NCBI GenBank assembly: GCA_009909085.1
Contig: JAAANX010000042.1
Span: forward strand, 1-43,267
Reading direction: 5' to 3'
DNA: 43,267 nucleotides
From: Cyanobacteria bacterium GSL.Bin1
GTDB lineage: Bacteria; Cyanobacteriota; Cyanobacteriia; Cyanobacteriales; Rubidibacteraceae
Part shown: positions 24,544 to 28,522 of the stretch, piece after piece
Layout: every line of letters starts with the position of its first letter
How positions within the stretch are numbered: position 1 is the first letter of the stretch
The notes under the pieces: model-generated
What the model was told of the DNA's origin: nothing
Seen by the model: the letters and a program-made list of their open reading frames with translations, nothing else
Database searches by the model: none
Position numbers and translations under genes: made by a program

Positions 24544-24921
24544 TTATTCTTCTAATAATCCCTCTTCCTGCATATGGCTAAGTAGCCAATTAGCCATGGT
24601 GGCGCGTCGAGTTTGTCGGGGACCAAAGTCGCCAATTTTATAGCCTTTAAAGCCTAATTTTTCCTTGAGGAGTTGTTTATTGGGTTTGGCAATGGAACGG
24701 GTCAATTTGACGGTAGCAGGGCGACTTTCAATAAAATCGGGAGGCTGGGGATAAGTGTCTCGCCACTCCGGGGGAACCAAATCATTTTGCCATTCTTCCC
24801 GCTTGGAATCGTAGCGATACCCCAAATAATACCAAACCAGTTGATTGACAGTAGCATCCGAAAGTTCTTCCTGGAGAATCCCCCAAATCGTTTCTTGATT
24901 CAAAGGCGGTAAATCTAACAT
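24544..24921 (-). CDS. DUF1823 family protein
   Basis: From ATG 24921 the protein is 125 aa; the frame extends to 24957, but the extra residues do not fit the family. It has the highly conserved features of cyanobacterial/plastid DUF1823: LPPLNQETIWGILQ, ATVNQLVWYYLGYRYD, DFIESRPATVKLTRSI and LGFKGYKIGDFGPRQTRRAT. The function is unknown. It is cytosolic with no membrane segment. The gene stands alone and its upstream region runs into the leader of the cobalamin riboswitch operon, which is transcribed away from it. Confidence 0.9.
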   Translation of the reverse strand: MLDLPPLNQETIWGILQEELSDATVNQLVWYYLGYRYDSKREEWQNDLVPPEWRDTYPQPPDFIESRPATVKLTRSIAKPNKQLLKEKLGFKGYKIGDFGPRQTRRATMANWLLSHMQEEGLLEE

Positions 24922-25154
24922 TATTATCTTGTTTATCTTGTGAGTAGAAAAGAGCAAGTTTGTTCAAGACCAAATCATTAGTCGTCAATTAATCCTGACC
25001 TAATTGTATAACTGAGCTAACTTTCATCATTGATCTCAAACAAAAGTACAACTCGACTGGAATGTCAACGAAAAGAAAATAGCTCATTCCCAGACGGATA
25101 ACCCTTAAGCGATCGCGCTTCCTGACCCACAGCATGGTATAGTAATGTTTGCGC

Positions 25155-25278
25155 TTAGGTTTCGATTAAAAAAGGCAATCGAAGTAAAGGGGAAAGCTCG
25201 GTGTAGGGCCGACACTGTCCCGCAACTGTGATGAAATTTGTTTTTGCTCAGAATTTCTCAGTCAGAACACCCGCCTAA
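25155..25278 (+). ncRNA. Cobalamin (B12) riboswitch aptamer
   Basis: The conserved core is present in order: aaaggggaaagctcggtg, then the pseudo-symmetric element gtcccgcaactgtgat (25218-25233), and the B12-box-type element gtcagaacacccgcct (25261-25276). These match the conserved nucleotides of class I cobalamin riboswitches, which shut off expression when adenosylcobalamin is bound. The outer stem uses aggtttcgatt and its partner near caatcgaag. It precedes hupE, DUF2808 and cobW. The distance from the aptamer to the hupE start is about 330 nt, unusually long. The remainder of 24958-25154 has a HIP1 site at about 25110 and no gene. Confidence 0.93.
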
Positions 25279-25542
25279 GACATCTCAACCGACTAGAAGC
25301 ATTCTGCGAGGTACAGATGCGGTTTATAACCGACAATCTCTATTTTTTTAATTTCCCAGTGGCAACCAATGCTACTTGCGATGGGAACAGTCAGACCGTT
25401 ATCTTAAGCAATCTGAAGTTGAAGGAAATTGCTTGTTGAGCTCACTACGGATAGCGCGTTGGATGAGAAATTTATGAAAACTCAGCGCCAACTTCTTTGA
25501 GTGGAGAGTCCGCTTTGCACCCCAGTAGTTGATCTTCGTACA

Positions 25543-25584
25543 ACGGGGATTAAGAGCGTCTCTGGCCATGATCCCGTATGTTTT
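25543..25584 (+). promoter_or_regulatory. Possible expression-platform hairpin before hupE
   Basis: ACGGGGAT (25543-25550) can pair with ATCCCGT (25571-25577) with one bulge, and is followed by atgtttt. It ends about 30 nt before the hupE ATG. It could be a terminator or a structure masking the ribosome binding site controlled by the riboswitch. The leader between 25279 and 25542 shows no credible gene. Confidence 0.4.
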
Positions 25585-25611
25585 AACTCTAATCATAAGG
25601 AATGAATCATC

Positions 25612-26322
25612 ATGAACAAAATTCTATCTGCCATTCAGACGAATGATGAACGGTTTTGGAAGCGCTTAACCATTGGTTTACTCGCTCTGATTGCTCTACT
25701 CAGCCTAGCGCAACCGGCGGTTGCCCACCATCCGTTTGCTGGAGAAGCGCCTAACAATTGGTGGGAAGGCTTTTTATCGGGTTTAGGTCACCCTGTAATC
25801 GGCTTTGATCATCTGGCTTTTGTCATTGCCAGTGGTTTAGTCGCTGCGAATACAAAGCGGGGTTGGATGATTCCTTTAGGCTTTGTCATGGCGGCAATAG
25901 CGGGAACCGGACTTCATTTGCAAGGGGTTAACCTTCCTCTATTAGAAGTGATGATTGCGGCTTCTGTGATAGCAATGGGCGGTTTTTTAGTCCTCTTCCA
26001 AAGTCATAATGTGGTGGGTGAAAGTAATCATAATAATCAGGCAGAATCCTTTAGTTATAGCCTTTTGATTGCCTTGGGCAGCGCGATCGCGGGAATCTTT
26101 CATGGTTATGCTTATGGAGAAGCGGTTGTTGGCGCTGAAATGACCCCACTGGTTGCTTATTTAGCCGGGTTTACGTTGATCCAACTGGGCATTGCTTTAG
26201 GAAGCTATAAACTGGCGCAAACATTACTCGCCCAAGTGAGCACCCCCAGCGTTCCGCTCACGCGATTAATTGGTTGTGGAATAATGGGAATGGGAGTCGT
26301 CTTTGTCACGTCTGTCATCTAA
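25612..26322 (+). CDS. hupE: HupE/UreJ-family membrane protein, probable cobalt (or nickel) transporter
   Basis: The 236 aa protein has a signal peptide ending QPAVAHH, then about six membrane helices. Metal-binding family motifs are present: HHPFAG after cleavage, GLGHPVIGFDHLAF (HPxxGxDH) and IFHGYAYGEA. HupE/UreJ proteins are secondary Ni2+ or Co2+ transporters. Location under a cobalamin riboswitch and next to cobW points to cobalt import for B12 synthesis. The start is ATG 25612 with aaggaatg upstream. The next gene follows 13 nt after the stop, with its Shine-Dalgarno overlapping the stop codon. Confidence 0.92.
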   Translation: MNKILSAIQTNDERFWKRLTIGLLALIALLSLAQPAVAHHPFAGEAPNNWWEGFLSGLGHPVIGFDHLAFVIASGLVAANTKRGWMIPLGFVMAAIAGTGLHLQGVNLPLLEVMIAASVIAMGGFLVLFQSHNVVGESNHNNQAESFSYSLLIALGSAIAGIFHGYAYGEAVVGAEMTPLVAYLAGFTLIQLGIALGSYKLAQTLLAQVSTPSVPLTRLIGCGIMGMGVVFVTSVI

Positions 26323-26335
26323 GGAGGTCAAGCTC

Positions 26336-26908
26336 ATGCCTGTTCCGTCCATTGCTTCTGGTTTGCTTGTTTGCGGTACAGTTCTCCTGCTAGCGCCCGC
26401 GAGTTGGGCAGGAGAACGTTTAGACGGAACCGTATTTTTTGATGCACCTCCCCGCTTGGAAGAGGCGAAAACCACCTTTAATGAAACCCAAATGCGAGGG
26501 GCAACTTACTATTTCACCCTCACCCTTCCCTCTCAAGCCGGTGAACCGCTGGGGAAAATAATGATTGAGCAACGGGGTGGGGTAGATGATATTCCCTTGC
26601 GCTTAGACCAAAGCACCGCCTTTGTCGGGACTGCTAGCGATAAACAAGAACCGATCGCGCTTGCAGATGTTTCCCAAAGCGAGAATAACCGTCAAATTAC
26701 CGTGCAACTTGAAACTCCCGTGACACCGGGAACCACTTTCACCATTGGACTGCAACCGAGAAAAAATCCCAGATATGGTGGTGCTTATTTGTTTGGGATT
26801 ACTGCCTTTCCGGCAGGGGATACCGTTCAAGAATTGTATTTAGGGGTCAGACGGATCCAGTTTTACGACCGTAGCAATGATTCCAATTTCCCAATGAGAA
26901 CTCGTTGA
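26336..26908 (+). CDS. DUF2808-family secreted protein
   Basis: From ATG 26336, preceded by a strong aaggaggtc at 26321-26329, the protein is 190 aa; a TTG at 26303 opens a longer frame but ignores that site. It begins with a signal peptide (LVCGTVLLLAPASWAG) and continues with the DUF2808 beta-rich domain: YYFTLTLPSQAGEPLGKI, GTTFTIGLQPRKNPRYGGAY and FGITAFPAG. The function is unknown; it should be periplasmic or outer-surface. Its position between hupE and cobW under a B12 riboswitch suggests a periplasmic part in cobalt handling, which is inference. Confidence 0.85.
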   Translation: MPVPSIASGLLVCGTVLLLAPASWAGERLDGTVFFDAPPRLEEAKTTFNETQMRGATYYFTLTLPSQAGEPLGKIMIEQRGGVDDIPLRLDQSTAFVGTASDKQEPIALADVSQSENNRQITVQLETPVTPGTTFTIGLQPRKNPRYGGAYLFGITAFPAGDTVQELYLGVRRIQFYDRSNDSNFPMRTR

Positions 26909-26913
26909 TTGTT

Positions 26914-26938
26914 AGCTCTCAGTTGAAGGGTGAGAGCT
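26914..26938 (+). promoter_or_regulatory. Intercistronic stem-loop before cobW
   Basis: AGCTCTCA (26914-26921) pairs with TGAGAGCT (26931-26938) across a 9 nt loop. No U-run follows, so a processing or stability element between DUF2808 and cobW is more likely than a terminator. Confidence 0.4.
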
Positions 26939-26978
26939 CAAATACAAAGAATATTCAGACAAAAAAATAGGAGTAAAT

Positions 26979-28034
26979 ATGGCTGCAAAAATCCCTGTCA
27001 CCGTTGTTACAGGCTTTTTAGGTGCTGGCAAAACGACCCTGGTGCGACATTTACTGCAAAATAATCAAGGACGCAAAATTGCCGTTCTTGTCAATGAATT
27101 TGGCGAAGTGGGTATTGACGGCGACTTACTTCGCAGTTGCCAAATTTGTGATGAGGATGAACAGACCAGTAATAATATTGTGGAACTGACCAATGGCTGT
27201 TTATGTTGCACTGTGCAAGAGGAATTTTTTCCCACGATGCAAGCCCTCCTCAAACGCCGGAATGATATTGATTGCATTGTTGTAGAAACGTCTGGGCTAG
27301 CGCTACCGAAACCCCTGGTTCAGGCATTCCGTTGGCCGCAAATTCGCAATGGTGCAACCGTAGATGGGGTGGTTACCGTGGTCGATTGTGCCGCCTTAGC
27401 CAGTGGGGCATTGGTAGGAGATTTAGACGCTCTCGAAGCGCAACGTCAAGCTGATCCCAATCTAGAGCATGAAACCCCCATTGAGGAGTTATTTGAAGAT
27501 CAACTAGCCTGTGCCGATCTGGTATTACTGACCAAGGCGGATCAAGTGGATGCGGCAACACGGAAAAAAGTTGAAAAGCGGTTGAAACAAGAATTGCCAG
27601 CAGGCGTCAATATTGTTCCTTGCTATAACGGGCAAGTGCCTGCCGATATCTTACTGGGCTTTAATGCTTCGGTGGAAGAAAACTTAGACAGTCGCCCTAG
27701 CCATCATGACCACGAAGAAGAACACGAACATGATGATGATATTAATTCGGTGCAATTGATTTTAGATGAGGCTTTTGAACCAAAACCATTAATGGAACGC
27801 ATAGAAGTCTTATTTAAGGAAGCGGAAATTTATCGTGTGAAAGGCTTTGTCAATGTTCCTAATAAGCCGATGCGTCTGGTTATACAAGGGGTAGGCAAGC
27901 ACTTAGACTCATTTTACGATCGCGCTTGGCAGAAGGATGAACTTCGCCAAACGCGTCTGGTTTTGATTGGACGAAATTTAGATGAAGGTCAAGTTAAAGC
28001 CAGCCTCCTGGAAGTTGTTCCTTCTCTCCATTAA
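26979..28034 (+). CDS. cobW: CobW, G3E GTPase metallochaperone for cobalamin synthesis
   Basis: The 351 aa protein shows all G3E landmarks: Walker A GFLGAGKTT near residue 12, the metal-binding NGCLCCTVQ (CxCC), VETSGLALPKPLVQAF and LTKAD (guanine specificity). A His/Asp/Glu-rich loop (SHHDHEEEHEHDDD, about residues 236-249) is followed by the CobW C-terminal domain. CobW is thought to deliver Co2+ to the aerobic cobaltochelatase in a GTP-dependent way. It is the last gene of the riboswitch group. Its TAA stop shares the tetranucleotide TTAA with the stop of the facing DUF4870 gene. Confidence 0.94.
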   Translation: MAAKIPVTVVTGFLGAGKTTLVRHLLQNNQGRKIAVLVNEFGEVGIDGDLLRSCQICDEDEQTSNNIVELTNGCLCCTVQEEFFPTMQALLKRRNDIDCIVVETSGLALPKPLVQAFRWPQIRNGATVDGVVTVVDCAALASGALVGDLDALEAQRQADPNLEHETPIEELFEDQLACADLVLLTKADQVDAATRKKVEKRLKQELPAGVNIVPCYNGQVPADILLGFNASVEENLDSRPSHHDHEEEHEHDDDINSVQLILDEAFEPKPLMERIEVLFKEAEIYRVKGFVNVPNKPMRLVIQGVGKHLDSFYDRAWQKDELRQTRLVLIGRNLDEGQVKASLLEVVPSLH

Positions 28035-28522
28035 CGATCGCGCCGGGCTTTAAATACGCGAAGGGTTAAGGGATAGAAATACATCTGTCCCTTTTTTGCT
28101 CTTACGGCGCCATTGGGTACCAGTGCTAAACTCCAAAATGTCGTTAGGATAGCAACACCCCGCCCTGCCCAATCAATCCCATTTATTACTAGTGCAATTG
28201 CGCCCAAAGAGCTGTTCACCTCAGCACCAAAAATGGCTAAATAAATAAAAAAGCCGATTACGCCGAGAAAAAACAGCACCAAACTATAACCCACAAGGGC
28301 AATCTGGAAATTGAGAGCTTCTCGCCCTTGGAAATCGACATATTCGGATTCTTCTCGCTTGACCAGCCAAATTAAACCGGGAACAATAATATTGATTAGA
28401 GGAATGGGAAATTCTAGCCAGTACAGTGGAATCCAAATCAAGCCCGCCAGATGACAGACGATTGCCCAACGGACTTCTTCTTGTGTAACTTTTACCATTG
28501 CCGTAACCAAGGAGTTACTCAT
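28031..28522 (-). CDS. DUF4870 (Tic20-like) membrane protein
   Basis: The 163 aa protein has about four membrane helices and the central conserved motif YVDFQGREALNFQIAL, which defines the DUF4870/Tic20-like group. These are small membrane proteins of unknown role in bacteria. The start is ATG 28522. It is co-directional with and 66 nt downstream of gshB, so read-through is possible, and overlaps cobW by 4 nt at the stops, leaving no room for a terminator between them. Confidence 0.85.
   Translation of the reverse strand: MSNSLVTAMVKVTQEEVRWAIVCHLAGLIWIPLYWLEFPIPLINIIVPGLIWLVKREESEYVDFQGREALNFQIALVGYSLVLFFLGVIGFFIYLAIFGAEVNSSLGAIALVINGIDWAGRGVAILTTFWSLALVPNGAVRAKKGQMYFYPLTLRVFKARRDR

Follow-up and report, generated by a model that had tools for sequence, protein, structure and literature searches.

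A cobalamin-riboswitch operon of hupE, a DUF2808 gene and cobW in a cyanobacterium, and a conserved hairpin that likely starts a short leader reading frame

The window analysed here, a stretch of 43,267 nucleotides (nt) from Cyanobacteria bacterium GSL.Bin1 (contig JAAANX010000042.1), carries a cobalamin (B12) riboswitch followed by a transporter gene (hupE), a gene for a DUF2808 protein and the chaperone gene cobW. B12-controlled cobalt units of this sort are already known; here a family-specific, probably secreted passenger or accessory, the DUF2808 protein, has been added. The more interesting feature, absent from an earlier note on this DNA, is a conserved initiation hairpin just past the aptamer, which starts a short open reading frame (ORF) here and in many other leaders, and the first product under B12 control is probably that of a tiny leader ORF. 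The explanation that we favour, with some reserve, is that of a B12-repressed cobalt operon with a DUF2808 protein that probably does not bind cobalt, in which the riboswitch would act on initiation of the upstream ORF (uORF) and the signal would be relayed from there to the operon. The features are as follows.

25140..25292, + strand: cobalamin riboswitch aptamer (RF00174; cmscan match over the full model, 53.4 bits against a gathering score of 31.5)
25299..25320, + strand: conserved initiation hairpin GCAU(U)CUG-CGAGGUA-CAGAUGC, with the Shine-Dalgarno sequence GAGG in its loop (leader comparison)
25317..25439, + strand: short leader ORF (uORF) of 40 codons plus TGA, its start codon 5 nt past GAGG (sequence)
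25343..25349, + strand: terminator-like T7 run after a weak hairpin, within the uORF (sequence)
25612..26322, + strand: hupE, HupE/UreJ-type transporter, probable cobalt importer (PF04955, E 2.7e-35; HPVIGFDH motif)
26336..26908, + strand: DUF2808 gene, product secreted by inspection of the N-terminus (...ASWA|GERL; PF10989, E 1.4e-48; predicted beta sandwich)
26979..28034, + strand: cobW, encoding a GTP-dependent cobalt chaperone (equivalog match to TIGR02475, 509 bits where the cut-off is 332; CLCC motif by inspection)

The riboswitch is the window's sole match above any Rfam gathering score, and hupE, DUF2808 and cobW each lie above the curated cut-off of their own family. The well-preserved aptamer and the gene order described in the earlier note are thus confirmed, the start given there (25155) falling inside the aptamer.

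In a leader alignment of six members of the window's family, a block after the aptamer (CTGCGAGGTACAGATG, 25304-25319) is as invariant as the aptamer core. It is the window's sole match to this sequence at up to 3 mismatches, where 0.14 were expected and 14 of 100 shuffles had one. The hairpin that holds it starts seven bases past the aptamer. In the best 76 of the 90 RF00174 matches listed from 49 genomes, the 15-base core CTGCGAGGTACAGAT occurs at up to 3 mismatches in 60 leaders, between 30 nt upstream and 160 nt downstream of the aptamer end. With seven family leaders added, the set comprises 67 leaders with the element and 54 distinct 22-base windows. Across these windows the three inner pairs around the loop CGAGGUA hold in 162 of 162 cells, the middle pair changing from T-A to T-G to C-G, and the outer three pairs, which are absent from the search pattern or only partly in it, hold in 124 of 162, a count that 5 of 2000 column shuffles also attain. 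Both the start codon and the Shine-Dalgarno sequence lie in a hairpin just past the aptamer, the pairing resting on comparison and not on folding energy.

A start codon (ATG or GTG) was sought 4-13 nt past GAGG. It opens a long ORF (at least 100 codons, or no stop before the stretch ends) in 26 of the 67 leaders and a short ORF in 35, and six have no start codon in the tested range. In seven genomes (G093, G076, G036, G027, G011, G105 and G005) the element's start codon is the start of hupE itself; other long ORFs begun there are those of a TonB-plug protein (by Pfam) and of cbiM (G085 and others), DUF1636 and cobW genes, gene names in leaders being read from the sequence unless Pfam is stated. 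Because its start codon opens a long ORF in so many leaders, the element is likely an initiation site.

In the window, this start codon opens the 40-codon ORF and not hupE. Each of the eight family leaders at this cluster has a short ORF of 19-55 codons in the same position, and the cbiM leader of a relative, G118, has one of 23 codons. Two of the 35 short ORFs (61 and 63 codons) were set aside as CbtB, a small cobalt transporter subunit, one of them above and one below the Pfam cut-off; the remaining 33, the window's included, span 8-55 codons. The next long ORF was placed in 32 leaders, about 10-512 nt past the uORF stop; the gap is measured to the longest ORF, which may in fact start further downstream. 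The genes that follow are hupE, cbiM, TonB-plug receptors, DUF1636, cobW and metE-like genes (three TonB-plug genes and one CbiM gene by Pfam, the others read).

Several controls bear on the open frame. At least 17 codons are open in 31 of the 33 uORFs, compared with 3 in the +1 frame and 12 in the +2 frame, and in 19 of 21 compared with 3 and 6 after close relatives are merged; the +1 control is biased, since an ATGA start meets a stop codon at once in that frame. Dinucleotide shuffles of 28 leaders, a set that includes the two CbtB leaders and predates the seven added later, give 14.1 uORFs of at least 17 codons where 26 were observed, and 10.3 of fewer than 12 codons where 2 were observed. 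Summed uORF length in 11 leaders lies weakly above that of shuffles (p 0.04). Six of seven uORF pairs of equal length have no excess of third-codon-position changes, on which ground purifying selection on the uORF peptides was rejected; the remaining pair, G002/G066, shows 4, 4 and 10 changes. Since the lengths exceed the controls while six of the seven pairs lack a third-position excess, it seems to be the open frame that is kept rather than the peptide.

These same results leave some room for a short ORF that is not translated at all, with the hairpin kept for RNA reasons (contact with the aptamer, mRNA processing) and the open frame due to chance. Such an account would fit peptides that are not conserved between distant leaders, the six pairs without third-position excess and the weak excess in summed length. 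On the other hand, the very same element starts a long ORF in 26 leaders, frames shorter than 12 codons are rare, and the G002/G066 pair changes mostly at the third position. We therefore consider an untranslated ORF unlikely.

Returning to the favoured explanation, a response to B12, translation of the uORF and a relay to the operon are what we infer from this arrangement. The riboswitch would probably act on translation initiation, B12 binding leading the hairpin at 25299-25320 to hide the Shine-Dalgarno sequence in its loop. A relay of the B12 signal from uORF translation to the operon would then be needed, because the site starts the 40-codon uORF and hupE begins 172 nt after the uORF stop. 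In the window, the likeliest relay would be that ribosomes on the uORF keep the terminator-like hairpin and T run within it from acting, which would turn initiation control into transcription control; this would fit only some leaders. T runs of at least 5 within 30 nt past the element occur in 11 of the 33 uORF leaders compared with 2 of 28 others. The window's T7 follows a hairpin overlapping the first uORF codons, and in G122 a hairpin stands directly before a T5 run; the terminator scan of the window region does not list the hairpin and T7 at 25343-25349. Cyanobacteria are not known to have Rho.

More broadly, we propose tentatively, and somewhat short of expecting it to hold in full, that CUGCGAGGUACRGAU is a near-invariant initiation hairpin of many cyanobacterial B12 riboswitches, which would either start a gene directly or start a uORF, mostly of 17-45 codons; translation of this uORF, whatever peptide it yields, may carry the B12 signal across some 10-512 nt to hupE, cbiM, TonB-plug receptors, DUF1636, cobW and metE.

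A number of results weigh against this hairpin and relay. The search pattern itself contains part of the inner hairpin pairs and so favours them. The 106 nt at 25255-25360 fold no better than shuffles (z -0.09), and support of the leader fold by free energy was rejected on that value. The element is missing in 16 of the 76 leaders, including both metE-remnant leaders of this genome, and G119 is likewise without it in its metE leader. A kissing loop between L5 and L13 has been described for B12 riboswitches (PMC9600662); here the hairpin loop is near-invariant while L5-like loops vary, which leaves the classical L5-L13 contact doubtful, and no clear complementarity was seen by eye. The early T run is missing in 22 of the 33 uORF leaders, so that one relay cannot fit all of them. 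In a folding model of 32 leaders, opening the uORF exposes the next start region by 0.010, compared with 0.019 for a shuffled uORF; with a mean gain below that of the shuffled uORF, simple structural coupling of the uORF to the next start region was rejected.

If the uORF relay is true, part of the cyanobacterial B12 regulon (cobalt uptake, outer-membrane receptors, metE) would be run by easily overlooked short ORFs, and reporter constructs without the leader ORF would mislead. It would also amount to a general, peptide-independent riboswitch-uORF relay.

The other two B12 riboswitches of the genome lead copies of one locus (L138, G000:C145:4000-14000; L139, G000:C39:1-6000), in which metE is reduced to a fragment beside a desaturase-like gene (both read from sequence). 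The relative G119 retains a full-length metE (L140, by Pfam).

We next consider what the operon encodes. Cyanobacterial HupE under a B12 riboswitch has been named a cobalt transporter (PMC7689651, PMC4284471) and CobW the protein that provides the late cobaltochelatase with Co(II) (PMC7689651); published work on the cobalt roles of HupE and CobW also includes PMC2667541. From the families and this literature, HupE would bring Co(II) across the inner membrane, CobW would bind it in the cytosol and pass it to cobaltochelatase, and the DUF2808 protein would be made under the same conditions as the cobalt genes. Riboswitch-controlled HupE with CobW is an already known kind of cobalt unit, and a cobalt role of hupE and cobW can be read from it on sound grounds. 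The earlier note had seen a complete cobalt route in this operon: importer and cytosolic delivery under a B12 riboswitch stand, and the periplasmic cobalt-binding part falls away, as set out below.

The window's HupE has a mature N-terminus HHPF by inspection, and its HPVIGFDH fits the motif HPxxGxDH. Positions of riboswitch, hupE, CobW and DUF2808 matches were joined in 49 cyanobacterial genomes, RF00174 being scored with stricter filters and the CobW rows being the 45 above cut-off. A riboswitch lies within 3 kb of 15 of the 31 hupE genes. Four genomes (G070, G027, G045 and G033) have riboswitch, hupE and cobW without a DUF2808 neighbour, cobW following hupE by no more than 0.25 kb. The family relative G118 has no hupE match in its genome. 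At the homologous place the riboswitch and hupE are gone, and DUF2808-cobW adjoins a gene read as the DUF1823 gene that flanks the window's operon; the sole B12-riboswitch match of G118 precedes a CbiM gene, then CbiN-, CbiQ- and CbiO-like ORFs (read from sequence). Two CbiM matches occur in G118 alone among the nine family genomes. The riboswitch, together with G118, suggests that HupE moves cobalt and not nickel, and G118, with riboswitch-led CbiM and no riboswitch-hupE, offers a natural test of HupE's cobalt role.

Three further observations concern HupE. The residues HH begin 20 of 23 HupE proteins with an HPxxxxDH-type motif after the likely signal-peptide cut (window 25612-26322; L040-L054, L091, L092, L094 and L096), 13 further loci without the motif by the pattern used having been set aside. 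The N-terminal Met-His of CbiM/NikM is a metal ligand, to which this HH may be a parallel. Ten HupE_UreJ matches (L055-L059 and L061-L065; 62-86 bits) have neither HPxxGxDH nor a B12 riboswitch within 3 kb, and are perhaps of different function. In G117 a second hupE, an ORF of 81 residues and a gene for a CobW-like protein with only 37% identity to that of the window stand in this order (L141, 3288-5212), perhaps for another metal.

Within the operon, 13 nt separate hupE from DUF2808 and 70 nt separate DUF2808 from cobW. For DUF2808 the ATG at 26336 was chosen as start, the ORF list having TTG at 26303. Between DUF2808 and cobW, 26914-26938 holds a perfect 8-bp inverted repeat (AGCTCTCA...TGAGAGCT) without a T run, and directly past cobW a ten-pair hairpin followed by T residues (28068-28097) is a candidate operon terminator. 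A scan of 24900-28200 gave no excess of promoter-like sites (2, compared with 4.6 in shuffles) or of terminator-like sites (3, compared with 3.7). A convergent gene beyond cobW encodes a DUF4870 protein. Genome-wide (4.82 Mb, 210 contigs), there are one hupE, three DUF2808 and three B12-riboswitch matches.

The earlier note had proposed DUF2808 as a cobalt-binding periplasmic component, and had suggested a search for DUF2808 genes under B12 riboswitches in other cyanobacteria, with the idea to be given up should they lie almost always away from cobalamin genes. DUF2808 is present in 48 of 117 genomes of the phylum. Only two of the 103 listed matches, which include 5 under cut-off and some fragments, have a riboswitch, hupE or CobW match no more than 3 kb away, and both are in the window's genus; this is close to the outcome named as refuting. 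Two further matches lie within 10 kb, in G008 (riboswitch at 8.4 kb, cobW at 6.8 kb) and in G085 (riboswitch at 4.6 kb, on the opposite strand). In the named genomes the single window DUF2808 protein as query gave no match, and an alignment of the operon type as query gave 31 loci, 30 of them outside the window's family. No hupE or cobW was found in the fetched flanks (up to 5 kb, some shorter) of any of these 30, nor a B12 riboswitch in the 29 that were scanned (L136 was left out of the Rfam scan). Four Moorena loci are an exception of a kind, with a CbiM gene 3.4-3.9 kb from DUF2808 (by Pfam for L109). With out-of-family homologues lying away from hupE, cobW and B12 riboswitches, DUF2808 as a general marker of cobalamin loci was rejected.

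Within the window's family, DUF2808 lies in the cobalt cluster in all nine genomes. The full order riboswitch-hupE-DUF2808-cobW is seen in six of them (G000, G054, G117, G119, G122 and G121, the DUF2808 of G121 being frameshifted). G120 shows riboswitch and hupE before its contig breaks off within DUF2808; the cluster consists of DUF2808-cobW in G118 and of riboswitch-DUF1636-DUF2808-cobW in G123. The riboswitch is present at this cluster in eight of the nine genomes, G118 being without it, and DUF2808 and cobW are adjacent in all eight genomes where the contig continues. A literature search pairing DUF1636 with cobalamin found nothing. The operon DUF2808 proteins are 40-74% identical to that of the window. 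In the DUF2808 tree the operon genes of the window's genus, five in number, form one group (100 in the Shimodaira-Hasegawa-like approximate likelihood ratio test, SH-aLRT); those of G122 and G123, like the broken copy of G121, fall nearby on a backbone that the tree does not resolve, so that a single origin is neither shown nor excluded.

Ratios of nonsynonymous to synonymous substitution rates (dN/dS) between the window and four relatives are 0.15, 0.18, 0.19 and 0.29 for DUF2808, above those for hupE (0.11, 0.15 and 0.16) and cobW (0.04, 0.05 and 0.06, no fourth cobW value being computable); all values are rough, with dS near or above 1. As judged from these ratios DUF2808 is under purifying selection, and this includes the comparison of the window with G118, a genome without hupE.

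The mature DUF2808 protein of the window has no His and no Cys, its signal peptide being read by inspection of the N-terminus only. In the seven operon DUF2808 proteins Cys is absent and His numbers 0-2; an alignment of 31 DUF2808 proteins shows no conserved His or Cys column, with His in at most 5 of 31 at any position. The sole near-invariant acidic residue is E70 (29 of 31), and an all-carboxylate metal site would be conceivable. The predicted structure is a beta sandwich (mean pLDDT, the predicted local distance difference test, 89). Its top structural neighbours by Z are YcnI (12.0; root-mean-square deviation 2.5, 117 aligned, 11% identity) and TTHA1873 (11.8); many immunoglobulin-like (Ig-like) chains score 9-10, slightly below YcnI, and Ig-like folds are common. 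By Foldseek E-value a collagen-binding domain ranks first and YcnI second, among Ig-like matches without function. The window's DUF2808 has no Pfam match to DUF1775, the family of YcnI, PF10989 being its only match up to an E-value of 0.001. The gene for YcnI shares its operon with metal-transport genes.

Three accounts of DUF2808 have to be weighed against this evidence. That it is a periplasmic cobalt-binding protein feeding HupE, as first suggested, would agree with its place in the cluster in all nine family genomes, its signal peptide by inspection, its purifying selection, the copper-binding YcnI among its best structural neighbours, and the four Moorena loci, where GDT1-type cation antiporter genes lie between CbiM and DUF2808. 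Because the mature protein is without His and Cys and none is conserved in homologues, cobalt binding appears unlikely, and a cobalt-binding DUF2808 was rejected on this content. The 30 out-of-family homologues without hupE or cobW in their fetched flanks point the same way, as do the persistence of DUF2808 without hupE in G118 and G123 and the frameshifted copy in G121, where the hupE and cobW frames are open (this frameshift may be an assembly error). We hold this account to be very improbable.

Alternatively, DUF2808 could assist the cobalt system as an accessory that binds no metal itself, such as a scaffold for HupE, CbiMNQO or an outer-membrane receptor. Its retention in the cluster at the identities given above, and beside cobW in G118 where riboswitch-led CbiM replaces hupE, would be expected of such a protein; four genomes run riboswitch-hupE-cobW without a DUF2808 neighbour, and the domain is also fused to a caspase domain and found near unrelated genes, which makes a dedicated accessory doubtful to us. 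A passenger, that is, an envelope gene with no relation to the operon that was inserted there and has been kept, would explain why DUF2808 is in the cluster in one family only and why its homologues are scattered. It accounts less well for the adjacency to cobW in eight of eight genomes, which holds even in G118, without riboswitch or hupE, and in G123, with DUF1636 replacing hupE. We see a passenger as quite possible, leaning slightly towards doubt. Because DUF2808 is in the cluster in all nine family genomes and appears to be under purifying selection, some link to the conditions of the operon is possible.

Our reading is that DUF2808 is a general secreted binding domain placed under B12 control by one family: probably a secreted Ig-like protein, probably not a cobalt binder, taken into the operon in one cyanobacterial family. 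Its role is most likely an envelope or protein-binding one. The guess made about DUF2808 in the earlier note has in this way been turned into testable statements.

Other DUF2808 genes were seen in varied settings. A second copy in this genome (L005, 496-1953; G000:C34) is the C-terminal domain of a caspase-domain protein, and G118 has a related long ORF (L073). The combination of caspase and DUF2808 is listed among cyanobacterial orthocaspases (PMC8283722, PMC7475262). The Synechocystis member Sll0470 is described as often lying near pntA (PMC6560206), and an Anabaena member was found in an exoproteome study (PMC10957091). Nine homologues (L109, L111, L112 and L114 of Moorena; L108, L115, L122, L124 and L136) are divergent from a small membrane ORF, which in L109 is just under the DUF4149 cut-off. 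GDT1-cluster genes are near eight of these nine, with a CbiM-cluster gene slightly further away in the four Moorena loci.

Compared with known systems, the operon shares with the cyanobacterial B12-riboswitch HupE (PMC7689651, PMC4284471) an HPxxGxDH HupE downstream of a cobalamin riboswitch, but here DUF2808 and cobW follow and a short ORF parts hupE from the riboswitch. The CobW gene resembles the CobW chaperone of PMC7689651 as a TIGR02475 equivalog above cut-off with a CxCC motif; in that paper CobW is usually beside cobN, whereas here it lies beside hupE and DUF2808. DUF2808 may share an Ig-like beta sandwich with the copper-binding YcnI (DUF1775), although unrelated Ig-like chains score Z 9-10; it has no conserved His and only the low identity given above. 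A limited literature search found no earlier report of the uORF arrangement for cyanobacterial B12 riboswitches; the one paper to which the combined topic led concerns fungal TPP riboswitches. The nearest precedent is that of the Mycobacterium tuberculosis ppe2 and metE B12 riboswitches with uORFs (PMC11260477), where, for ppe2, a riboswitch-controlled uORF likewise starts within a hairpin that holds the Shine-Dalgarno sequence. The ppe2 uORF overlaps ppe2 by AUGA and is partly conserved, as described in that source; in the cyanobacterial leaders, by contrast, a gap of about 10-512 nt (32 leaders) follows the uORF, the peptides are unconserved, and several different genes lie downstream.

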